A stretch of 64,000 bases of DNA, taken from a virus. The DNA lies in the IMG/VR virus record IMGVR_UViG_3300020172_006270, positions 1-64,000 of that record; one strand, written 5' to 3'. Within the stretch, counting starts at the first letter, position 1; every line of letters begins with the position of its first letter. The notes beneath the pieces were generated by a model. The model was not told the DNA's origin, made no database searches, and was given only the letters and a program-made list of their open reading frames with translations. Below, piece by piece: positions 5,819 to 64,000 of this stretch. The translations under genes and the position numbers were made by a program.

Positions 5819-6847
5819 TTGGTTGATTCAAAAATAAAAATAACCCATGTTAATGACCGCTACCTCAATAACGGAGGAGCAGAAATTTTCCTGCGAGAGC
5901 TATACCCACACCTGCGAGATGTTACCATCCGGCAGAGCATATGCGTTCGCCCTGATCGTATCGACCAAGATTTTGCCAGTACATTTCCCTTCCCGGTAAT
6001 CGCTGGAGGGAGGCAGGAAATCCAGCAGGCCATAGACGCCGACGATGTGATAATCTGTTGGGGAAATAACCAACTTAACAAACTGGTTGATCGAAAACCA
6101 AAAGTTTGCATTTACAATGCTTGCGCAGATGCACGTCAGCAATTGCTGGGATGCAATGAAATTGTTACCCATGTAATTGCATCAAACAGTCTGATATGCA
6201 AAACCGTTGCATTCGACTTCCCCCACACTCGAATTCTACCAGGGGTTAACCCTGACCGTCTAATCACTACAGAATCCAGGGATGAAACTCGCCGCCTCCT
6301 GAACTATACAAAAAATGATTTTGTAGTAGCAATGATCGCTCGAATTGACTTCGAGAAACAGCAAGACTGGCTAGTGCAGTGCCGCCGACAGCTACCTCCC
6401 CATGTTAAGGCGCTTTTTGTAGGGGATGGCCCTGACCGTGCCAAACTGGAAGAGGTCGCCGATGAAAATTGCCGTTTCGTAGGCCACCAGAAGGCAGTAG
6501 GCAATTGGTTTAATTGTATTGATGCCTACTGCCTACTCTCCTCCACAGAGGGTTGTCCGGCTGCTATGTTCGAGGCCATGTTTGCTAAAGTCCCAATTAT
6601 CGCTACTCCTGTAGGATCGGTGCCAGACCTTATCGAGCATGGAAAAAATGGAATGGTAGTCACCAACCACAAGGAACTCGTGGTTGCCATCAACACCCTT
6701 GCCGATAACCCAGAATACGGCAAGTCACTCGCTAATGAAGCCTATCAAACGGCAATTGCCAATGGCCATATAAAAGAAACAGCATCACAGTGGGAATCTT
6801 TAATCAAAAAACTAAAGAAAAGAGGAACATGGAAGTTGTACAAATAA
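5819..6847 (+). CDS. Family 4 glycosyltransferase
   Basis: This 342-residue protein has a GT-B fold GT4 pattern: N-terminal NNGGAEIFLRELYPHL where the acceptor-side domain starts, VVAMIARIDFEKQQDW opening the donor domain around residue 175, and STEGCPAAMFEAMFAKVPI near residue 245, the conserved E-x7-E donor-binding motif. The start is TTG at 5819, about six bases after GGCGAGGAG, a strong ribosome site. It heads a rightward four-gene operon running to 9348. Confidence 0.9.
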   Translation: MVDSKIKITHVNDRYLNNGGAEIFLRELYPHLRDVTIRQSICVRPDRIDQDFASTFPFPVIAGGRQEIQQAIDADDVIICWGNNQLNKLVDRKPKVCIYNACADARQQLLGCNEIVTHVIASNSLICKTVAFDFPHTRILPGVNPDRLITTESRDETRRLLNYTKNDFVVAMIARIDFEKQQDWLVQCRRQLPPHVKALFVGDGPDRAKLEEVADENCRFVGHQKAVGNWFNCIDAYCLLSSTEGCPAAMFEAMFAKVPIIATPVGSVPDLIEHGKNGMVVTNHKELVVAINTLADNPEYGKSLANEAYQTAIANGHIKETASQWESLIKKLKKRGTWKLYK

Positions 6848-7587
6848 AAAACGAGCGTCATCTAGGCGACACTATGACCATATTGAATTTGTTGCACAGC
6901 AGGGCTATTGTGACAAATGAAAAATTCAAAATTTTTGGGCCTGATTTTATACCCATGTTGTTTGAGATATTTGAATACAAAGGATTAAGTTACGAAGGGC
7001 CTATGATTGAAGACTTAAATATGACCACCCCAATCATCAGCCTATTTCCAAGACTTACAAATGGCGTATTGGCACAAAACTTAGCGACTGTGACATTCTT
7101 GAACGGCGTCATGTTTAGACCCGATTCGCCGCCTGACTACAAACTACAAGAAGTCTGTTTGCCACAGTGCAAGCTGCCCTCTCAGGTAGCAGAAAATATC
7201 GCCTGTTTCCAATTCGACAGTCGCTCAATACATGAAGACAAGATGCCAATGACAAGCGAAGAAAGCATCATGAATATCAAAAAGTTCCAGCCCGAAGGCG
7301 TCAAGGTAGTAGGAATTGGAGGCCACGATACTAAGCCATATTTAGACTATGAATTCCAACTAGGTGACTTAGTTCAGTTGTGCAAGACATTAAAGAAATG
7401 CAATAAATTCATTGGCTCCGATAGCGGCATTTCTCACCTTGCAGGTACAGCACGAATAAGTGGAGACATCATCATCATCCACTCAAGACAACGACACTTC
7501 GATGAACTCAAGGTCTTTTATAATATCATGTACCCTACACTGCGATGCCATCACCGTTACCATAATAGCAAGAAACTTTTCTTATGA
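6829..7587 (+). CDS. GT9-like (heptosyltransferase-type) glycosyltransferase
   Basis: The ATG at 6829 follows AAGAGGAAC and gives 252 residues; the longer frame from 6790 lacks a ribosome site and runs deep into the previous gene. The N-terminal RHLGDTMTILNLLHS is the GDxxxxxP/L loop of GT9, and FIGSDSGISHLAGTA near the C-terminus matches the donor-binding D(T/S)GxxHLA motif. Shorter than typical GT9 (about 330). It overlaps the end of the GT4 gene by 19 bases and the next start by ATGA. Confidence 0.78.
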   Translation: MEVVQIKNERHLGDTMTILNLLHSRAIVTNEKFKIFGPDFIPMLFEIFEYKGLSYEGPMIEDLNMTTPIISLFPRLTNGVLAQNLATVTFLNGVMFRPDSPPDYKLQEVCLPQCKLPSQVAENIACFQFDSRSIHEDKMPMTSEESIMNIKKFQPEGVKVVGIGGHDTKPYLDYEFQLGDLVQLCKTLKKCNKFIGSDSGISHLAGTARISGDIIIIHSRQRHFDELKVFYNIMYPTLRCHHRYHNSKKLFL

Positions 7588-8696
7588 TCCCATACTTAGT
7601 TCAGAGCAACCTATCCTCGGAACAACATAAAAACTGCTGCCAACGATTTGGCTACTCTGCGGAATGGGATCGCTCCGTCCGAGAGAATGTATGGAGACGC
7701 CACCAGGAGGATAAAAACAAAGAAGCATCAGGGTGGAAGATCGGCGATCACCGTCGCCGACTGGTTCACTTCAAAGACAAATATGGACTTCAAGGAAACG
7801 ATTTTTATCTTACCTCCACATACCTGTTCCTGTCACTGAAGTTGCCAAAAAAAGAACTCAGACTGTATCAGGAAAAAATATGTGACACTTGGCGACCGTC
7901 CAACACACTACAACTGAAAATGGTTGAAAGCAAAGTCCATATAGCGGACATACAGCATGGACGAGAAACGCCTCCTGATTATTCCAACCTAGACGTATGG
8001 TTGTATTCTGAACCTGTGTCTGACCGGGTATTAGACAAGCCTTGGAAAATTCTCAAAACGGGAATTAGAGAACGCCGCCCGGCAGGTCGCCCAACGACTA
8101 TAAACAGAGCCGATCTGGAACAATTCTTTCCGGCGCAAATTGAACTAGGCTGTGGGCCATCCATCGAAACTGGCATTCCACCACTGAACTACTTCCACAA
8201 CCTATTCTCACTGCAAAAAAACGGCAAGTTCGTATTCGCTGCGGACGACGATCAATTACTGGATGTTTTCAGCGACCCCGCTGAATGGTATTCCAGGGCG
8301 GTCGTCATGCACCGACAATGTTTACTGGCCGAGCCGTCGCCATTCTACCACAAGCTCAAATGCCTGCATGATGAGGGTCGAATCGTTGGACCGATATTGA
8401 ATAACAATTTTGACGGGCTACCGTTAAGTGTGGGGCTGGAAGAATTTTCACTTCGCCAGTACGACGAGGACGGCCTATATCCATCCATTAAATTCCACCC
8501 TAACGCCAAATCACTCCTGGTAATCGGATCACACGCTGACCGCCGCAATTGCCAAGCTCACGCCCGCAATCATGGACTCACGGTCGTCTATATTGACCCC
8601 GAAGGATATACAATCGGAGACAAATTCGCCCCGTACCCAGTCGAATCACCCCAAGACCAAGACTACATACTCCGCATCCCAGCATCGGAGTTATAA
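7584..8696 (+). CDS. Sirtuin-fold (SIR2-like) protein with unique N-terminal domain
   Basis: The 370-residue protein has about 185 N-terminal residues I cannot place, then a sirtuin-like Rossmann domain: GCGPSIETGIPP (189-200) for the usual GAGxSxxSGIPDFR, a helix DPAEWYSRAV leading to AEPSPFYHKL as in sirtuins (xxAEPNxxHxAL), NNNFDGLP (273-280) for TQNIDGLH, LLVIGSHADRR (311-321) for the VxGTSL loop and VVYIDPEG (334-341) for the final VxIN strand. The zinc-ribbon cysteines, the catalytic His of the ELHG motif and the DFR arginine are missing, so it may bind NAD or a related ligand without deacetylating. ATGA-coupled to the GT9-like gene and two bases before a cysteine-peptidase-like gene. 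Confidence 0.62.
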   Translation: MIPYLVQSNLSSEQHKNCCQRFGYSAEWDRSVRENVWRRHQEDKNKEASGWKIGDHRRRLVHFKDKYGLQGNDFYLTSTYLFLSLKLPKKELRLYQEKICDTWRPSNTLQLKMVESKVHIADIQHGRETPPDYSNLDVWLYSEPVSDRVLDKPWKILKTGIRERRPAGRPTTINRADLEQFFPAQIELGCGPSIETGIPPLNYFHNLFSLQKNGKFVFAADDDQLLDVFSDPAEWYSRAVVMHRQCLLAEPSPFYHKLKCLHDEGRIVGPILNNNFDGLPLSVGLEEFSLRQYDEDGLYPSIKFHPNAKSLLVIGSHADRRNCQAHARNHGLTVVYIDPEGYTIGDKFAPYPVESPQDQDYILRIPASEL

Positions 8697-8697
8697 T

Positions 8698-9348
8698 ATG
8701 TACACACCTTGTTTCATCGGCGAAGACTGTGAGGCATCCTATCGGTGGAAACAATTGGGACAAACCCCAACTGGCCCGTTCCATAAAAAAGGTATTACTT
8801 TAGCTAGGCTTATGCGTCTGTTGCAAGATGACTTCTTGAATATATGCAACAAGAATAACCTACGAATAGTCGATCCCCTTAAAGGGTACAAAAATTCACT
8901 AGGAGGTTGTCTACGGGTTACGGAAGTAATCGACAACCAAATCGGCATGGAACTGTGGCACGACTTTCCTGCTCATCTCCAATTTGATGAACAATACAAC
9001 AGATTCATTGATGGAATGAGTAAAGAAATGGCTGAATTCAAGAATCTTGTCTGCTACGACCTACGACCCATATTATTCATACACAAAAAAACAGACCTTT
9101 TGTCAATTGCCGATAATAGCGATCTGAAGAATCAGTATCGAATATTGCTATCCCAACTGAAGTACCACCGAGCGGGCAGAAGATTTCTATTGGTCGCCCT
9201 GGGTCACAACGACCAGTTCCGAGAGGACTGGAAAATGGAAAACCTTATGACCCTTCAGATTCACACCCCTAAATTGTGGGGACATGACTTGCCAGAAGAA
9301 TCATGGCGCAAAGTCTACTCTCTGTGCAATCAAGCTCGTCTATTGTAG
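8698..9348 (+). CDS. DUF1796-type putative papain-like cysteine peptidase
   Basis: I start at the ATG at 8698, one base after the previous stop, giving 216 residues; a longer frame from 8572 lies inside the sirtuin gene. The opening CFIGEDCEASYRWKQLG matches DUF1796 (usual form LGxxCxxAxxLRxxG), where the Cys is the presumed nucleophile. RPILFIHKKTD and RFLLVALGHNDQ follow the family's later strands. The usual PFDW element is altered to GPFHKK. In bacteria DUF1796 genes often lie in surface-glycan loci, which fits this operon. Activity is unproven for the family. Confidence 0.6.
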   Translation: MYTPCFIGEDCEASYRWKQLGQTPTGPFHKKGITLARLMRLLQDDFLNICNKNNLRIVDPLKGYKNSLGGCLRVTEVIDNQIGMELWHDFPAHLQFDEQYNRFIDGMSKEMAEFKNLVCYDLRPILFIHKKTDLLSIADNSDLKNQYRILLSQLKYHRAGRRFLLVALGHNDQFREDWKMENLMTLQIHTPKLWGHDLPEESWRKVYSLCNQARLL

Positions 9349-9607: not shown

Positions 9608-10621
9608 ATGCTCAAGTTGGTGAAAAAGAAGGTGAAGAAGCCGGTATCGCTGCGAGATCACCAGGAAAGACGAAATAAAATACTCATCAAAAGACGCAGC
9701 GGCGGCTACGGCGACATCCTCATGCAAAGAATGCTATTTGAGGACTTTTCAAAGGCTTTTCCAGGCGCAGAAATCACATTTGCCTGCCCTGCAATGTACG
9801 TCGAAATGGCCAAAAATCACCCGTTCGCCAAAGCGATTGATCTTGGCTCCGTAAATGAGGATGAATATGGAGCCATATACGACCTATCAACCGCCTGTCG
9901 AGTTCACGAATCTCGCTTTGGAGAGAGAAATCAAGATCATAGAAGCGATATTTGGGCGGCACATTGCGGCATAGTTTTGAACAACCATAATATGATGCTG
10001 AAGCCAGACCCAATTGTGTTGGAGCAATGCCGAGAAGCATTCAAGCGATACAACAAGGAAGGAAAGCCAGCAGTATTGCTTGCTTCGACTTCCACTCCCG
10101 ATATGATAGGCACAGCCAAGAGCCTGACCTACAATCAAATCAGCGATGTAGTCAAAGCACTAAGAGATCAAGGCTGCTATGTGTTTACTATCCACACCGA
10201 CAAGCAAGTTGTGTACGACAACTTGGGAGTAGACCAAATATTCAGCATCCATCAACAAGCCTGGATTTCTATGGTCGAACTAGCTGATGCCGTCATCTCA
10301 GTAGATACTGCGACATTTCATATCGCAGGTGGGCTTCAAAAACCCTTAATTGGGATATTCGCTTTCACTGACGGCAAACTGTACGGCAAATACTACGATT
10401 TTGTCCTGGTTCAAAAACACAGAGACAATGGCGATTGGGACTGTGGCCCATGCTTCAACATGACGACTTGTCCGAAGTCAAAAGAAATTCAGAAGCCATG
10501 CCTGACAGAGCTATCTTCCTCCGACATTCTTCGGGGGTTCGCTGAGGCCGTAGAGAAGTGGCCGTCCTTAAAAAATAGTCTAAAAAATAAGCGAACCGAT
10601 CTGCTTGGTCATACATCATGA
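9608..10621 (+). CDS. GT9-type glycosyltransferase
   Basis: The 337-residue protein starts with a basic stretch (KLVKKKVKK), then RRSGGYGDILMQRMLFEDF, the GDxL loop of GT9 enzymes, and near residue 235 has VDTATFHIAGGLQKPLIGIF, the family's donor-binding segment with Asp, Thr and His in place. Length matches heptosyltransferases. CGPC and a further Cys near residue 280 may bind a metal or form a disulphide. It stands alone after the structured gap 9349-9607. Its last 167 bases overlap, antisense, the GT9-like gene at 10455. Confidence 0.85.
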   Translation: MLKLVKKKVKKPVSLRDHQERRNKILIKRRSGGYGDILMQRMLFEDFSKAFPGAEITFACPAMYVEMAKNHPFAKAIDLGSVNEDEYGAIYDLSTACRVHESRFGERNQDHRSDIWAAHCGIVLNNHNMMLKPDPIVLEQCREAFKRYNKEGKPAVLLASTSTPDMIGTAKSLTYNQISDVVKALRDQGCYVFTIHTDKQVVYDNLGVDQIFSIHQQAWISMVELADAVISVDTATFHIAGGLQKPLIGIFAFTDGKLYGKYYDFVLVQKHRDNGDWDCGPCFNMTTCPKSKEIQKPCLTELSSSDILRGFAEAVEKWPSLKNSLKNKRTDLLGHTS

Positions 10622-40844: not shown

Positions 40845-42323
40845 ATGCCAATAGTAATAACGAAACCAGTGCTTACAGCAACCTATTTAGTGGTTGATGA
40901 GAATGGCACTGTTATTTCGTCTCACCCTCAAAATATCGAGATCGAGTCAGTAGACGCCGATAGTTTTTTGCAAGCTCTAAGTGATTTGATGCTGGCAAAA
41001 GACGGCCTTGAACTCACCGCTAGTGAAGTTCATATGTTGATACGCACTGGCAATATGATTTCTCTCGGTAACGTCCAAGCTGCCACTCTCGGCGTTCAGA
41101 GCCAATATCAATTCCCCACAGCGGTTGGATCGACCGGGCAGGTTATTGGGTATCAAGGCACGAGCCAGTTGGCATGGGTTAACTCAGGTAGTGGCGCTCA
41201 AGGCTTTCAAGGAAACCAAGGCGCACAGGGCAATCAAGGCGCACAAGGAAATCAAGGCAATCAAGGAAACCAGGGGTTTGCAGGCTCGGTTGGTTCACAA
41301 GGTTTTCAGGGCAATCAAGGCAATCAGGGAAATCAAGGCACACAAGGCAACCAAGGGAACCAGGGATTCCAAGGTTCTGCCGGTACTGTCGGAAATCAAG
41401 GATTTCAAGGTAATCAAGGTAATCAGGGAAACCAAGGAACACTAGGAAACCAAGGCAACCAGGGATTACAAGGTTCTGCTGGTACGGTTGGTTCACAAGG
41501 ATTCCAGGGAAACCAAGGCAATCAGGGTAATCAAGGCACTCAAGGCAACCAAGGAAACCAAGGCAACCAAGGAAACCAAGGAACCGCTGGATCACAGGGT
41601 TTTCAAGGCAACCAAGGCGCACAAGGTAATCAGGGAAATCAGGGCAACCAAGGCACACAAGGTTTCCAAGGCAATCAGGGTAATCAAGGAACTGCTGGCG
41701 CACAAGGATTCCAGGGCAACCAAGGCAATCAGGGAAATCAGGGCAACCAAGGCACGCAAGGTTTCCAAGGCAATCAGGGCAACCAAGGAACTGCTGGCGC
41801 ACAAGGATTCCAGGGAGTTCAAGGCGCACAAGGAAATCAAGGATCACAAGGAAACCAGGGCATTTCTGGCTTAGGGTTTAGTGTTCCTTATACATTCAAC
41901 ACAAGCACAGTGATGTCGGCGGCTTCTGGAGAAGTTCGATTCAATAATGCTACGATTGCATCTATTACCAATATCGACATCTCAAGAACAGATCGCAATG
42001 GTGCTGGTCAGCAAGCTGTGTTGGATCGCATGTCATCTGGCACATTGTTTAGATTCTCTGCCGAAGCTAGTGCTACACAATACAACTTCTTCCAAGCCAA
42101 TAGCGTAACGAAGAATGCTCAAGATTATAACTTTGCTGTTGCATACTTGTCGAACAATGGATCGTTGTTCTCTAACTCAGCAAATATTGGTTTGGGAATT
42201 GCCATGATCGGCTACCAGGGCAATCAGGGCGCTCAAGGCTTCCAGGGCTACCAAGGCTTCCAGGGCGCTCAAGGCGCACAAGGACACCAGGGCAACCAAG
42301 GTAATCAAGGAGGAGGCATATAA
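40845..42323 (+). CDS. Collagen-like Gly-X-Gln fibre protein, copy 1
   Basis: 492 residues: an N-terminal domain (1-116, ending GQVIGYQGTSQLAW, a pattern of phage tail-fibre joints), a Gly-X-Gln stalk of about 230 residues with GNQ, GAQ, GTQ and GFQ triplets, a globular beta domain (about 348-455, starting PYTFNTSTVMSAA) and a second short Gly-X-Gln stalk to the end. The stalk has no proline; Gln holds the Y position in nearly every triplet, interrupted by GFAGSV and GSAGTV. Triple-helix stability would have to come from side-chain bonds. Probably a virion fibre or whisker. SD GGAG at usual distance. Confidence 0.9.
   Translation: MPIVITKPVLTATYLVVDENGTVISSHPQNIEIESVDADSFLQALSDLMLAKDGLELTASEVHMLIRTGNMISLGNVQAATLGVQSQYQFPTAVGSTGQVIGYQGTSQLAWVNSGSGAQGFQGNQGAQGNQGAQGNQGNQGNQGFAGSVGSQGFQGNQGNQGNQGTQGNQGNQGFQGSAGTVGNQGFQGNQGNQGNQGTLGNQGNQGLQGSAGTVGSQGFQGNQGNQGNQGTQGNQGNQGNQGNQGTAGSQGFQGNQGAQGNQGNQGNQGTQGFQGNQGNQGTAGAQGFQGNQGNQGNQGNQGTQGFQGNQGNQGTAGAQGFQGVQGAQGNQGSQGNQGISGLGFSVPYTFNTSTVMSAASGEVRFNNATIASITNIDISRTDRNGAGQQAVLDRMSSGTLFRFSAEASATQYNFFQANSVTKNAQDYNFAVAYLSNNGSLFSNSANIGLGIAMIGYQGNQGAQGFQGYQGFQGAQGAQGHQGNQGNQGGGI
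41190..41867 (+). repeat. 9-base-phased Gly-X-Gln repeat, gene 1
   Basis: DNA of low complexity made of ggc/gga/ggt-aac/aat-caa/cag codons for Gly-Asn-Gln and variants. Near-identical runs of 30-60 bases recur, so recombination could change stalk length in steps of three residues. It also creates false long open frames in the other readings. Confidence 0.9.
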
Positions 42324-42324
42324 A

Positions 42325-43929
42325 TTGATAATCACGATTAAACCACAAATATCGGTTAGACTTCTTAAAGCAGATGGTGATACCATCCTGTCTGCTCATG
42401 ATAAATCTATCGACGTTGATTTGGTTGCCGATGATTTCATCTCTGCATTCAATACTTTGTTTGCCGACAAAGACGATTATCAACTTGTTGAAAGACCTAT
42501 TGTTTCGACCAATTTCTTATTGGTAAACAATAATGATGTTGTTGTGGCAACTCATCCACAAAGAATTGAACTTGGATTGAACATCGAGAGCTTTTTGGAT
42601 GGCATGAATAAGCTGATCGAAATTCGAGATGGCTTAGGCGGCGTGAATGCGTTGCTCACAATGGGCAATATCATTTCACTCGGCAATGTGCAGGCTGTAT
42701 CTCTTGGCATTCAAAGCCAGTATACGTTTCCAACGACAGCCGGAGTGACTGGACAAGTCATTGGCTATCAAGGCACATCTCAATTGGAATGGATCAGTGG
42801 TGCTACTGGTTTGCAAGGCCCTCTTGGTCTTCAGGGTCGGCAAGGAAATCAGGGGAATCAAGGCAACCAAGGCACGCAGGGCTTCCAGGGCGTTGGATCG
42901 CAAGGCTCGCAAGGCTTTCAAGGCAACCAAGGTCGTCAAGGAAACCAGGGCAACCAAGGCAATCAAGGCAACCAAGGATTTCAAGGTGTTGGATCGCAAG
43001 GCTCTCAAGGCGCACAGGGAAACCAAGGTCGTCAAGGAAACCAGGGGAATCAAGGCAACCAAGGTACACAAGGTTTTCAAGGGTCTGGCTCGCAAGGTCT
43101 GCAAGGCGCTCAGGGAAACCAAGGCAACCAAGGTGTACAAGGCAACCAAGGAACGCAAGGCAACCAAGGCCGACAAGGAAATCAGGGAGCCGGTCTGCAA
43201 GGCGCACAGGGAAACCAAGGTCGTCAAGGCAACCAAGGAAATCAAGGCAATAGAGGCTTACAGGGTCCGCAGGGCCGACAAGGAAATCAGGGAGCCGGTC
43301 TGCAAGGTCGGCAAGGCAACCAAGGAACACAAGGAAGACAAGGCAACCAAGGCAATCAAGGCTTTCAAGGTCGCCAAGGCAACCAAGGTTTAGGACTTCA
43401 GGGGCGACAAGGCTTTCAAGGCAACCAGGGGAATCAAGGCTTTCAAGGCAATCAGGGAGTTATCGCTCCTGGGTTTGTGTTGCCGCTCGCATTCAACACA
43501 AGCACCGTAATGTCGGCGGCATCTGGAGAGTTGAGATTCAACAACGCTACTGTTGCATCTGTGACCAATATTGACGTGTCGAGAACCGATAGAAATGGTT
43601 CTGGTCAACAGGGCGTGCTTGATAAATTTGGTAATGGCACTTTGTTTTTCTTTACGTCTGAAGCGGTAGCTTCTCAGTATAGTTTTTTCACTACTACTGG
43701 CGTGACGAAGAATGCAAGTGACTATAACTTCAGCGTTAGCTATATTTCTAATGCTGGTACTTTGTTTGCTAACTCACAAAATGTGAGTATGGGTGTTGCT
43801 CTGCTTGGATTCCAAGGAATCAGCTTGCAGGGCGCTCAAGGCTTCCAAGGACGCCAAGGCTCTCAAGGCTTCCAAGGACACCAAGGCAACCAAGGCGATC
43901 CTGGTGGTCCGGTTATTGAAGACCCTTAA
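42325..43929 (+). CDS. Collagen-like Gly-X-Gln fibre protein, copy 2
   Basis: Tandem paralogue of 40845 with 534 residues. The N-terminal region is longer (about 160 residues, again with GNIISLGNVQAVSLGIQSQY and GQVIGYQGTSQLEW), the stalk has many GRQ triplets besides GNQ, and the same C-terminal beta domain and short tail follow. The start is TTG at 42325, 12-15 bases after AAGGAGGAGG. GRQ makes this stalk basic, so the two products could pair with each other in a mixed fibre. Confidence 0.88.
   Translation: MIITIKPQISVRLLKADGDTILSAHDKSIDVDLVADDFISAFNTLFADKDDYQLVERPIVSTNFLLVNNNDVVVATHPQRIELGLNIESFLDGMNKLIEIRDGLGGVNALLTMGNIISLGNVQAVSLGIQSQYTFPTTAGVTGQVIGYQGTSQLEWISGATGLQGPLGLQGRQGNQGNQGNQGTQGFQGVGSQGSQGFQGNQGRQGNQGNQGNQGNQGFQGVGSQGSQGAQGNQGRQGNQGNQGNQGTQGFQGSGSQGLQGAQGNQGNQGVQGNQGTQGNQGRQGNQGAGLQGAQGNQGRQGNQGNQGNRGLQGPQGRQGNQGAGLQGRQGNQGTQGRQGNQGNQGFQGRQGNQGLGLQGRQGFQGNQGNQGFQGNQGVIAPGFVLPLAFNTSTVMSAASGELRFNNATVASVTNIDVSRTDRNGSGQQGVLDKFGNGTLFFFTSEAVASQYSFFTTTGVTKNASDYNFSVSYISNAGTLFANSQNVSMGVALLGFQGISLQGAQGFQGRQGSQGFQGHQGNQGDPGGPVIEDP
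42810..43464 (+). repeat. Gly-X-Gln repeat, gene 2
   Basis: Same type of codon-level repeat as at 41190 with interspersed cga/cgt-caa (Arg-Gln) codons. Homologous tracts could drive unequal recombination between the two fibre genes. Confidence 0.88.
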
Positions 43930-54227: not shown

Positions 54228-55592
54228 ATGAACTTAGACAAAATATTGATTGGTATGCACGAAGAATCCTGCCGTTTGCACGCAGAGGGAAGAGATTCAG
54301 AGGCTTTATTTACCTGCGAACAACTGGCAGTACAATCTCTCAATACATTGGGGCTTGCTTATTGCGGTTATTTGCCCAATTACGACAAGGCAATAAATTG
54401 CTTTTTCGATGCTCTTAAAATCGAGCCAAGTAACTGGTTGTTGTGGTCAAACATTTGTCACGTTCGCAGTCTCCAAGAGCGTCATAAAGAAGCCCTGTCT
54501 GCCGCCATTCAGTCAATCAAGTTTTCAGACGGAATCGCCTTTGATCCTTACTACAACGCTGGCGTGACTTTAACTGCTCTCGGCAGATGCAAAGAAGCCG
54601 TCGAGATGTACCGAGCCGCCTTGCAGATCAGCCCGGAACACAGCCAAATCAATTACAATCTGGGACTGTGCTTGTTGAGAATTGGCGAATGGAAAGACGG
54701 TTGGGAGAAATACGAATACAGGTTCAAGACCAGTGAATTGACGGGTCGATTCAAAGATAGATTCATTCAAGATCAGTGGGACGGCAGGAAGTTCAAAAAG
54801 AAAAGCCTTGCCGTCTATAGCGAGCAAGGCTTGGGCGACTTCATATTTTTCGCTAGATTTTTACCAATGGTAAAAGCCCTCGGTGGTAAGGTGATATGTG
54901 AAGTACAAGAACCATTGAAGGATGTTATTGGAAAGAATCTCAAAATTGATGAATTGGTTTCCCGTCCCAATAATACTGAGTGGCCCGCACCGCCAGATTC
55001 AGATTACGCCGTTTCGATTTCTAGTCTTCCAAGAATTTTGAAAATCGACTCTTTGGACAAGGTGCCGAATCGTCCGTATATTGCCGCCCCCAATAAACCA
55101 AGGCCACGGGGTTTCTCGAACAAGAAGTTCAACATTGGCTTGTGCTGGGCGGGTAACTCAGATCATCAACGAGATTACACCCGATCAATGTTTTTGAATC
55201 ACTTCAAGCCGCTCGCTGACAATCCAAAAGTTCAACTTTTTGGTTTGGTGAAGGGCGTCCGAAATCAAAGGAAGTGGCCGGAAGGAGTGGTTGATTTGAA
55301 CTATGGCATTGATGATTTTCCAATGGTCAATTTAGAAAATCAAATCAATGGATTTGGCGACTTGGCTCATTACATCAATCATCTGGACTTAGTGCTGACT
55401 GTAGACACAGGATTAGCACACTTGGCAGGAGCGATGGGCAAGCCTGTATGGGTTCTGTTGGGCAAAGAAACAGATTGGCGATGGGGAGACGATGCAACAA
55501 CCTCAGCTTGGTATCCCAGCATGAGGTTGTTTCGTCGCCAAGATACTTGGGAAAATCTTGTTTCCGAAGTGATTACTCAACTGCCGTCATAG
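54228..55592 (+). CDS. TPR-glycosyltransferase (GT9/GT41-like)
   Basis: 454 residues: TPR helices over about 1-190 (YDKAINCFFDALKIEPSNW, CKEAVEMYRAALQISPEHSQ), then a GT-B domain with KSLAVYSEQGLGDFIFFARF (the GDxxxF loop) and VDTGLAHLAGAMGKPVWVLL, the donor motif. TPR plus this domain is the layout of protein O-glycosyltransferases such as those acting on flagellins and adhesins; the TPR part is expected to bind the protein acceptor. Neighbouring fibre genes make virion proteins the natural target (inference). Confidence 0.88.
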   Translation: MNLDKILIGMHEESCRLHAEGRDSEALFTCEQLAVQSLNTLGLAYCGYLPNYDKAINCFFDALKIEPSNWLLWSNICHVRSLQERHKEALSAAIQSIKFSDGIAFDPYYNAGVTLTALGRCKEAVEMYRAALQISPEHSQINYNLGLCLLRIGEWKDGWEKYEYRFKTSELTGRFKDRFIQDQWDGRKFKKKSLAVYSEQGLGDFIFFARFLPMVKALGGKVICEVQEPLKDVIGKNLKIDELVSRPNNTEWPAPPDSDYAVSISSLPRILKIDSLDKVPNRPYIAAPNKPRPRGFSNKKFNIGLCWAGNSDHQRDYTRSMFLNHFKPLADNPKVQLFGLVKGVRNQRKWPEGVVDLNYGIDDFPMVNLENQINGFGDLAHYINHLDLVLTVDTGLAHLAGAMGKPVWVLLGKETDWRWGDDATTSAWYPSMRLFRRQDTWENLVSEVITQLPS

Positions 55593-58954: not shown

Positions 58955-59328
58955 CCAATGTTACCTCCATACAACTCGAACCAGCGTTCCTTAATCATCG
59001 CATCGGCGATTGGACTGCGTGCATTGAGGTCTTCTTCTTTCTCAATCTTCACGCCATCTCGTCGCCCGCCCCAGCCCGTAGCTGATTTCATCTTGGCCGT
59101 CAGTGGTTCTTTGCTGTAGGCCGACAAAGGTGGGCAGATTTCTTCTTTGGCACCGTTCTCGCTACGGCCATTTTCGTAAATCACACCATCCTTGATGAAG
59201 CGATGGTGTTTATGTTTACATTTAGGGCAGACGATTTCCACGCCGATGGTGAGAGCCATATTCAGTCTTACTCGAAAATAGCCCGAACACTCACCGCAGT
59301 AAAACTCCTGCCATACTTTGTTATCCAT
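58951..59328 (-). CDS. Zinc-ribbon-type hypothetical protein, 125 aa
   Basis: FYCGECSGYF and IVCPKCKHKHHRF form two CxxC knuckles about 20 residues apart, a zinc-ribbon layout, followed by a charged tail. Starts in TAATG overlap with the LysRS stop. Could bind nucleic acid; not assigned. Confidence 0.72.
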   Translation of the reverse strand: MDNKVWQEFYCGECSGYFRVRLNMALTIGVEIVCPKCKHKHHRFIKDGVIYENGRSENGAKEEICPPLSAYSKEPLTAKMKSATGWGGRRDGVKIEKEEDLNARSPIADAMIKERWFELYGGNIG

Positions 59329-60719
59329 TAGTCCCTCGGCCTCAATAGGGGGAATGCAATTACGTCTCGAATGGTAGCCTGATTGGTCAGGATAGCCACA
59401 AGACGGTCGATGCCAAGTCCAAGACCGCCAGCCGGAGGCATACCTGTCTTGATGGCATCTACGAAGTCTTGATCCATAACGTGACCGTCCTTGGCTTGCT
59501 TTTGGAAATTCTCCAATTGAATATCCGGGTCGTTCAACTCGGTATATCCTGGCGCAATTTCCATGCCGCCAATGACCAGTTCAAATGTCTCTGCGTATCC
59601 TTGGTTTCCATCATACTTGCCGAATGGTCGTGCCAATGGCACTGCACTAGCAGGCATGTGCATAACGAAGGTTGGCTGAATCAGCGTTGATTCAATCGTG
59701 TCTTCGTATACCTGGAAGCGATATTCGGGCGAGCCGTCTCCGACCACCAGTTCTTGCAAGGATACTCGCTTGAATGGTGGAGTGAAGTTTAGCAGATGTT
59801 CCTTGTAGGGAATATCCATAAGGCGACCGTGAATCTTTTCCACTTGGTTGACGATAAGAGCCTCAACCAGCTTCATCATCGTCTCGTAGTTGCCAAAGGC
59901 TTGGTAAGCCTCCATAGACGTGAATTCAGGGTTGTGGCGAGGGCTGATGCCTTCATTGCGGAAGTTCTTGCCGATCTCGAAGACCTTGTTCATGCCGCCA
60001 ATGAGCAACTTCTTCAGATATAGCTCAGGGGCAATACGAAGGAACATGCCAATGTCGAGGGCATTGTGGTGCGTCATGAATGGCTTGGCGATAGCACCAC
60101 CAGCCGACGCTTGCAGAATCGGAGTTTCGACTTCATCAAAGCCACGATCATACATCATCGTGCGAATATCACGAATGATATTGGCTCGCTGCCGAAACAC
60201 CTTCATGGTGTCCGGGTTGGTCCACATATCAACGTGGCGAAGACGATACTTGAGTTCCGGGTCATTTAGCCCGTGAACCTTGTCTGGTGGTGGCGTGAGA
60301 GCCTTAGATACAATACGAAACGTATCGGCCCAAATAGTGATCTCGCCACGCTGAGTAGCGGCCAGACGACCCCGGACAGCGACAATATCGCCCAGGTCCA
60401 ATGCTTCGTATTGTGGCCAATCCCATCGTTGAGCTACAGGACCAGCAAACTTAGACTGGTCGATGGCAACTTGGATTTGCCCATCCTCACTTGTGATGGT
60501 GAGGAAGGACAACTTTCCATGACCCCGCTTGAGCGCACACCGACCAACAATAACAAACTCCGGGCCGTCTTCCTTGGTGAAAGAGGCATCAAAGCTGTCA
60601 CGAACAATATCAATGTTCGTTGGTGCTGGATCAATAATGGACATATCGAAAGGCCGGTGTCCCTTGGCCTTTAGATCGTCTAACTTGGCTCGGCGTTCAT
60701 CAACAGGGTTGTTGCTCAT
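59328..60719 (-). CDS. lysS: Lysyl-tRNA synthetase, class II
   Basis: 463 residues with an N-terminal OB-fold anticodon-binding domain (GRCALKRGHGKLSFLTI, GDIVAVRGRLAATQRGE) and the class II core: motif 2 as FEIGKNFRNEGISPRHNPEF and motif 3 as GGLGLGIDRLVAIL. The MEAYQAFGNYETMM region and APELYLKKLLIGGM are typical LysRS. About 40 residues shorter than E. coli LysS, mainly at the N-terminus. A phage-borne LysRS may keep translation going if the host's is limited or tRNA is modified. Confidence 0.95.
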   Translation of the reverse strand: MSNNPVDERRAKLDDLKAKGHRPFDMSIIDPAPTNIDIVRDSFDASFTKEDGPEFVIVGRCALKRGHGKLSFLTITSEDGQIQVAIDQSKFAGPVAQRWDWPQYEALDLGDIVAVRGRLAATQRGEITIWADTFRIVSKALTPPPDKVHGLNDPELKYRLRHVDMWTNPDTMKVFRQRANIIRDIRTMMYDRGFDEVETPILQASAGGAIAKPFMTHHNALDIGMFLRIAPELYLKKLLIGGMNKVFEIGKNFRNEGISPRHNPEFTSMEAYQAFGNYETMMKLVEALIVNQVEKIHGRLMDIPYKEHLLNFTPPFKRVSLQELVVGDGSPEYRFQVYEDTIESTLIQPTFVMHMPASAVPLARPFGKYDGNQGYAETFELVIGGMEIAPGYTELNDPDIQLENFQKQAKDGHVMDQDFVDAIKTGMPPAGGLGLGIDRLVAILTNQATIRDVIAFPLLRPRD

Positions 60720-62871: not shown

Positions 62872-64000
62872 TTACTCGTTTGTCATCATGCCCATCTTGG
62901 GGAGGAATACTTCCAAAGGCAAGGTTTCCTGATCGCCCGAAGTTGATCTCATTTGCTTGAGAGTCACAGTCCTTGCGGTCTTTTCTTTTTCTCCCAAGAT
63001 GACCATATACGGTACTTTTTTCTCATACCCGATGGCAATCTTTTGTTGTAGCGTCCGATTCGAGTGATCGCATTCACACCGAATCCCTTGAGCGAGCAAG
63101 GCTTCTTTGACTTCGTTGGCGTAATCAGCAACCTTGTCGCTGATTGGTGCAATAGTAACACCGACCGGAGCCAACCACATTGGTAAATTCCCATCAGTGT
63201 GTTCTAACAGCACACCGATGAAACGCTCGAAGCTGCCATATATCGCTCGGTGAATAACAATCGGAGTTTGTTCTTTGTCTTCCTTGTCGGTGTAAGTGCA
63301 ACCGAATCGCTGCGGCAATTGGAAGTCTAACTGGATAGTAGCAGTTTGCCATTCACGACCCAGGGAGTCAGTTACAATGAAGTCGATTTTCGGTCCATAA
63401 AAAGCACCGTCTTTATGAGCCACGTCAAACTTCAAATTATTTTCACACAAGGCGTCTTCAAGGCTTGCTTCAGCATTATCCCAAGTCAATATATCGCCCA
63501 TGAAGTTATCGGGACGAGTGCTGAGTACGGATCGGAACTTCATTCCGAACCAGCCGTATACTCTGCCGATCATAATGAGAATTCGCTTGATCTCGCTTTG
63601 CAGGTTGTCCGGCGAAACGAAAATATGGGCATCATCTTGGCAGAACGCACGACAACGAGTAAGTCCACCCAAGGCACCGGAAACCTCGTTTCGATGCAAT
63701 GGGCCATACTCGGCGAACCGCACGGGCAAATCTCGATAGCTCCACTGCTTTGAGCGGAATATCTCCATATGCCCAGGGCAGTTCATTGGCTTCAAACAAC
63801 AATCTTCATGTTCTTCGTCTTGCTTCTCGCCAGTTGGCTTATCGCTGACGAAGAACATATTTTTCGCATAGTGGTCCAGATGCCCGCTGGTTGCATAAAG
63901 TTCGGACTTCCAGACGAGTGGGGTCCGAACTTCTTGGCAACCATTGGCTTCATTGAGTTGGCGAATGCGATTCAGCAATGATTGATAAAGGACAACTCCC
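62872..64000 (-). CDS. thrS: Threonyl-tRNA synthetase, 5' partial
   Basis: The frame is open to the right edge, so the N-terminus is outside; a TTG at 63978 is only an internal codon. The visible class II core includes QEVRTPLVWKSELYATSGH, LKPMNCPGHMEIF with the zinc-ligand Cys, RFAEYGPLHRNEVSGALGGL (motif 2), DDAHIF, and TPIVIHRAIYGSFERFIGVL (motif 3), then the anticodon-binding domain from about VTIAPISDKVADYANEVKEA to the end. A separate editing or TGS region cannot be assessed. Second aminoacyl-tRNA synthetase in this leftward block. Confidence 0.95.
   Translation of the reverse strand, partial: GVVLYQSLLNRIRQLNEANGCQEVRTPLVWKSELYATSGHLDHYAKNMFFVSDKPTGEKQDEEHEDCCLKPMNCPGHMEIFRSKQWSYRDLPVRFAEYGPLHRNEVSGALGGLTRCRAFCQDDAHIFVSPDNLQSEIKRILIMIGRVYGWFGMKFRSVLSTRPDNFMGDILTWDNAEASLEDALCENNLKFDVAHKDGAFYGPKIDFIVTDSLGREWQTATIQLDFQLPQRFGCTYTDKEDKEQTPIVIHRAIYGSFERFIGVLLEHTDGNLPMWLAPVGVTIAPISDKVADYANEVKEALLAQGIRCECDHSNRTLQQKIAIGYEKKVPYMVILGEKEKTARTVTLKQMRSTSGDQETLPLEVFLPKMGMMTNE

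Follow-up and report, generated by a model that had tools for sequence, protein, structure and literature searches.

A sirtuin-like gene lies within a glycosyltransferase operon

The window, the 64,000-nucleotide stretch of phage DNA analyzed here, encodes a sirtuin-like protein, and both the ORF list and full-length homologues (E = 1e-50 to 1e-67) identify its ORF, which begins with ATG, as a real gene (Table 1). The sequence ATGA at 7584-7587 joins its start codon to the end of the gene before it, and the ATG of the next ORF follows immediately downstream, at 8698. The initial annotation had placed the gene in a glycan operon, and this description holds: GT4, GT9-like, DUF1796-like and GT9 genes flank it, with tight overlaps. 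A cytidylyltransferase, a polysaccharide deacetylase and a GT2 gene also lie upstream, within 7 kb. This phage is rich in glycosyltransferases, so these neighbors are weak evidence. No viral relative was found for the upstream gene (6790-7587), and promoter and terminator scans did no better than shuffles.

Table 1. Genes, domains and motifs at the sirtuin-like locus
Feature	Position	Strand	Basis
GT4 glycosyltransferase, in the same operon and overlapping the GT9-like gene	5819..6847	+	domain search
GT9 (heptosyltransferase)-like gene, weak match; overlaps the start at 7584 by 4 bases	6829..7587	+	domain search
Gene for a divergent sirtuin-superfamily protein, 370 aa	7584..8696	+	ORF, full-length homologues, family HMM
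Family-specific N-terminal half (residues 1-150), with the conserved pattern WRRxQ...SGW...RRRxVH	7584..8033	+	alignment; no known relative
C-terminal half, residues 183-370, sirtuin-like domain	8130..8693	+	hhalign, sirtuin-only HMM, PDB profile matches
GCGPSIETGIPPL, residues 189-201; sirtuin counterpart GAGxSxxSGIPxFR, FR lost	8148..8186	+	alignments
N275-F-D277 (in NNFDGL, 274-279); sirtuin counterpart N-I-D; N and D family-invariant	8406..8414	+	alignment
R291, invariant Arg at the sirtuin catalytic-His site (within one residue)	8454..8456	+	residue count
GSHADRR, 315-321 (in VIGSHADRR, 313-321); invariant GxHADRR replaces the sirtuin GTSLxVxP loop	8526..8546	+	alignment
IDPEG, 337-341 (in VYIDPEG, 335-341); invariant DxE ends the last recognizable Rossmann strand	8592..8606	+	alignment
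DUF1796-like gene ("putative papain-like cysteine peptidase"), downstream	8698..9348	+	domain search
GT9 glycosyltransferase	9608..10621	+	domain search

The C-terminal half is homologous to sirtuins

The query protein alone matched no model in Pfam, NCBIfam or PHROGs. Its best matches in the PDB had E-values of 0.2-0.9, and the second of them was a sirtuin. We therefore rely on profiles of the family for its sirtuin link, as the query also falls below the cut-off of the list obtained with an HMM built from sirtuins only. Comparing 13 family members with 10 sirtuins by hhalign gave a probability of 96.3% (E = 1.8e-9), whereas the controls gave 0.8% (family versus UDP-glucose dehydrogenases) and 0.05% (N-terminal half versus sirtuins). 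When the sirtuin-only HMM was run over 2,628 ORFs, sirtuins ranked at the top, followed by the remote members L017 and L016 and then by other family members; the best unrelated ORF had an E-value of 4.8.

Searches of the PDB gave the same picture. Sirtuins were the only matches of a 12-member profile up to an E-value of 5. With a 15-member profile, to which L016 and L060 had been added, the best E-value was 2.2e-4 and sirtuins made up the first 14 of 16 matches, continuing without interruption until N-terminal noise. Sir2-Af2 was matched by L016 at 1.5e-5 and by L017 at 3.2e-6. The cut-off of the Pfam SIR2 model (PF02146) is not reached, the best member having an E-value of 0.005 and 17.2 versus 24 bits, and the query not matching at all. 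L017 (also L025) is a 333-amino-acid remote sirtuin relative that lacks the canonical His position, carries an IGLRADDR loop and has, besides, a weak Pfam match to the TPP-enzyme middle domain. These data indicate, at the level of sequence, that residues ~183-370 are homologous to sirtuins, and from this homology we predict a sirtuin-type fold for them. The N-terminal half has no convincing relative in the PDB; its one weak match, to GH16 (E = 0.12), was taken as noise.

The catalytic His and zinc ribbon are lost and other polar residues are invariant

A sirtuin order of motifs had been read in residues 189-341, and every one of these motifs is present there. The family shares with sirtuins (PF02146; Sir2-Af2, 1ma3; T. 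maritima Sir2, 1yc5) a Rossmann-type core, the GxGxS...GIP loop, an A/EP(S/T) stretch with NxD, a VxG loop and a late strand with an acidic or Asn end. It differs in having Arg for the catalytic His, no zinc ribbon, no FR after GIPP, HADRR for GTSLxVxP and an extra N-terminal half of ~150 amino acids.

The initial annotation had also described the domain as shortened and as missing the catalytic His, the zinc ribbon and the DFR motif, and our counts bear this out. Counting the N of NxD as 1, the His of sirtuins lies at 17-20 in 10/10 cases, and position 17 is Arg in 13/13 aligned family members. The stretch between NxD and the Rossmann loop that follows is 38-40 residues long in the family, with 0-1 Cys, and 84-98 in sirtuins, with 3-5 Cys; a four-Cys zinc ribbon is absent from all 13 aligned members. 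Where sirtuins have GIPxFR the family has GIPPL, with an invariant His (H205) after it. N275 and D277 belong to the nicotinamide-pocket NxD. In the family alignment, 17 of the 29 invariant columns are polar or charged (C/H/D/N/E/R/Y), and their conservation across divergent members points to a working site. L016 keeps the Arg at position 17 and the DRR, and the His of HADRR is absent from it. At the other end, the query stops about 10-45 residues short of most homologues.

The family is mostly cellular

By tblastn, full-length relatives were found on eight Streptomyces/Kitasatospora plasmids (32-36% identity across 99% of the query), together with three partial copies. A relative at 51% is encoded on one uncultured bacterial contig (L002). 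Our survey of cellular genomes covered one phylum, that of the L002 contig, in which 8 of 379 genomes (~2%) carry relatives; L016 and L017 are the remote members among these eight. The phylum, presumably Patescibacteria, is one of small uncultured bacteria, and most of its listed genomes are 0.5-2 Mb in size.

Among viruses, one other phage contig (L018) carries a member, 40% identical to the query. Alignment and DNA-pattern scans of viral sequences returned nothing beyond L018 and two plasmid-like contigs of actinobacterial type, a viral scan with the single query sequence found nothing, and neither the query nor L011 had a homologue in the phage collection. In two further IMG/VR matches, L009 and L010, the gene is of the actinobacterial type. 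Most members are cellular rather than viral. The family tree is weakly resolved, also as to whether the phage copies of the window and L018 have a common origin. The family as a whole has no model in Pfam, NCBIfam, PHROGs or PADLOC, and our literature search returned no description of it or of the five-gene cassette described below. Judged by its profile, it is a previously unnamed branch of the sirtuin (SIR2) superfamily.

Relatives recur in sugar-nucleotide gene cassettes

We examined the genes around the relatives. At 10/12 actinobacterial loci, a gene resembling UDP-glucose dehydrogenase lies near the family gene, and the usual cassette adds a class III aminotransferase, a GNAT and an RmlD-like gene (Pfam check). 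The two loci lacking the dehydrogenase are L005, where only RmlD lies beside the family gene, and L063, a degraded locus in which an aminotransferase fragment and transposases adjoin it. The five-gene cassette recurs on different Streptomyces plasmids (L003, L004 and L059-L062), with decayed copies on L063-L065. This Streptomyces cassette is possibly an undescribed biosynthetic pathway, and its recurrence on plasmids makes that pathway concrete and testable.

The gene directly upstream in phage L018 encodes a shortened dehydrogenase that has the catalytic-Cys motif GGACLPKD, and it ends exactly at the start of the family gene; downstream are a GT2 gene and then genes that read as a sulfotransferase and a methyltransferase. 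The gene of L016 overlaps one whose sequence reads as an NAD-dependent epimerase. In the small-genome bacteria (L019-L023), the family gene stands alone, without glycan neighbors. Neither a UDP-glucose dehydrogenase nor a canonical SIR2 was found in the window's phage record, which may be incomplete. Actinobacteria and L018 therefore give a strong link to sugars, the window gives a circumstantial one, and the other members give none. No defense gene recurs beside the family gene.

Viral sirtuins are rare and occur mostly in caudoviruses, where Macro-linked, HerA-linked and RNA-repair groups have been described (PMC9503650). The RNA-repair clade comprises sirtuins of jumbo and V5-like phages, with 2H, cREC, Nudix and PIN genes as neighbors (PMC9503650). 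The protein in the window resembles these in being phage-encoded and of the sirtuin superfamily. Its gene adjoins glycosyltransferases, whereas theirs, as described, adjoin 2H/cREC/Nudix/PIN or Macro genes; the query had no PHROG match. The viral sirtuin contexts in that report include no glycosyltransferase operon or sugar-nucleotide cassette (PMC9503650).

A possible role in the metabolism of a modified sugar

Known sirtuin domains are deacylases, ADP-ribosyltransferases or NADases and act through a conserved His. We propose that this divergent family comprises active enzymes, or partners of enzymes, that use NAD or a related nucleotide for a modified sugar, and we give this reading a probability of about one half. 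The retained phosphate loop (GxGxSxExGIP), NxD and D/E closing the strand at the ribose end suggest that the sirtuin dinucleotide-binding core is kept, so that the protein may bind NAD, a prediction made from motifs. Around this core, the catalytic His has been exchanged for the invariant Arg, the zinc ribbon lost and the HADRR loop gained, and the protein bears an N-terminal domain of its own. The invariant polar residues, like the cellular and biosynthetic contexts of the gene, argue for an enzyme rather than a decoy, and the gene neighbors point to a sugar-nucleotide role. The protein would help to make or transfer a modified sugar, probably of the hexuronic-acid type, and in the window's phage the protein may serve the surrounding glycosyltransferase operon. 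A sugar-nucleotide or NAD-linked enzyme was one option raised in the initial annotation, and it fits the neighbors (UDP-glucose dehydrogenase, RmlD, aminotransferase) and the polar invariants.

With the His gone, standard sirtuin chemistry is unlikely. One option is that NAD stays bound and serves as a redox cofactor, for which deoxyhypusine synthase, with an NAD-binding domain of the same general fold class, offers a precedent. Another would be glycosyl or ADP-ribosyl transfer with a different general base. More tentatively, the sirtuin-superfamily domain might itself be a phage- and plasmid-borne nucleotide-sugar enzyme of a hexuronate pathway, working through an Arg/HADRR site without the catalytic His. 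If true, this would be chemistry so far undescribed for the sirtuin fold. The loss of the His in every member, with many polar invariants kept, suggests a chemistry or a function that is new to this fold.

The family could instead consist of NAD-consuming conflict enzymes, either NADases or ADP-ribosyltransferases, akin to the SIR2 domains of ThsA and DSR2. The sirtuin core of ThsA, DSR2, AVAST5 and SIR2-HerA lacks the zinc ribbon of deacylases, as does this family, and such zinc-less domains of defense proteins are known NADases. Retention of the nicotinamide-pocket N and D and the carriage of members on plasmids and phages are in keeping with this. The defense proteins, however, keep the catalytic His, which ThsA and DSR2 mutants show to be needed and which is replaced by Arg throughout the aligned family. 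PADLOC models did not match the query, L018, L003, L011 or L013, the partner genes of defense SIR2 NADases are missing, no Macro-domain partner was found in the window's phage record or that of L018 (both may be incomplete), and the neighbors are biosynthetic. We consider a conflict enzyme unlikely.

We regard with similar doubt the idea that the protein has a sirtuin fold but no catalytic activity and serves to sense a nucleotide, or as a regulatory or scaffold subunit, for example of the partner dehydrogenase or glycosyltransferase. Loss of the His, the stand-alone gene of small-genome bacteria and the frequent adjacency of UDP-glucose dehydrogenase would all suit such a subunit, but the 17 invariant polar residues, HADRR and R291 included, suggest more than a binding remnant.

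Some other Rossmann-type domain, with sirtuin-like motifs by chance and no sirtuin kinship, would account for the empty Pfam scan of the single sequence and for the weak match of L017 to the related TPP-enzyme middle domain; the hhalign result with its negative controls, the run of sirtuins among the PDB matches and the recovery of many members by the sirtuin-only HMM, with no false positives, make this highly improbable. The suggestion in the initial annotation that the phage protein is an inhibitor or decoy against host SIR2 defense was rejected as the least probable of all: beyond its being phage-borne and sirtuin-related it finds no support, since members are mostly cellular, plasmid copies sit inside a biosynthetic cassette, neither a PADLOC match nor a recurring defense gene was found, and a decoy would have no need of so many polar or charged invariants and leaves the conserved N-terminal domain and pocket unexplained. 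Being sirtuin-like and phage-borne does not by itself imply defense or counter-defense.

Other observations in these phages

An ordinary sirtuin, with the His and Cys pairs, is encoded at 1504-2235 of L056, from a 595-kb uncultured phage (LR756511.1). It lies ~5 kb from a UvsW-like helicase, which is the closest found to that of the window (54%). Distantly related methyltransferases (25%, E = 2e-17) are encoded at 163-879 of the window and at 14427-15242 of L018, in each case 6-7 kb from the family gene. At 54228-55592 of the window, a GT9 glycosyltransferase domain is fused to TPR repeats. Two adjacent genes, at 40845-42323 and 42325-43929, contain long collagen-like GxQGxQ repeats (GNQGNQGFQG) and probably encode phage tail or fibre proteins. 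There are no tRNA genes in the 64,000 nucleotides, and the genes at 59328-60719 and 62872-63978 read as lysyl- and threonyl-tRNA synthetases, which are unusual in a phage.
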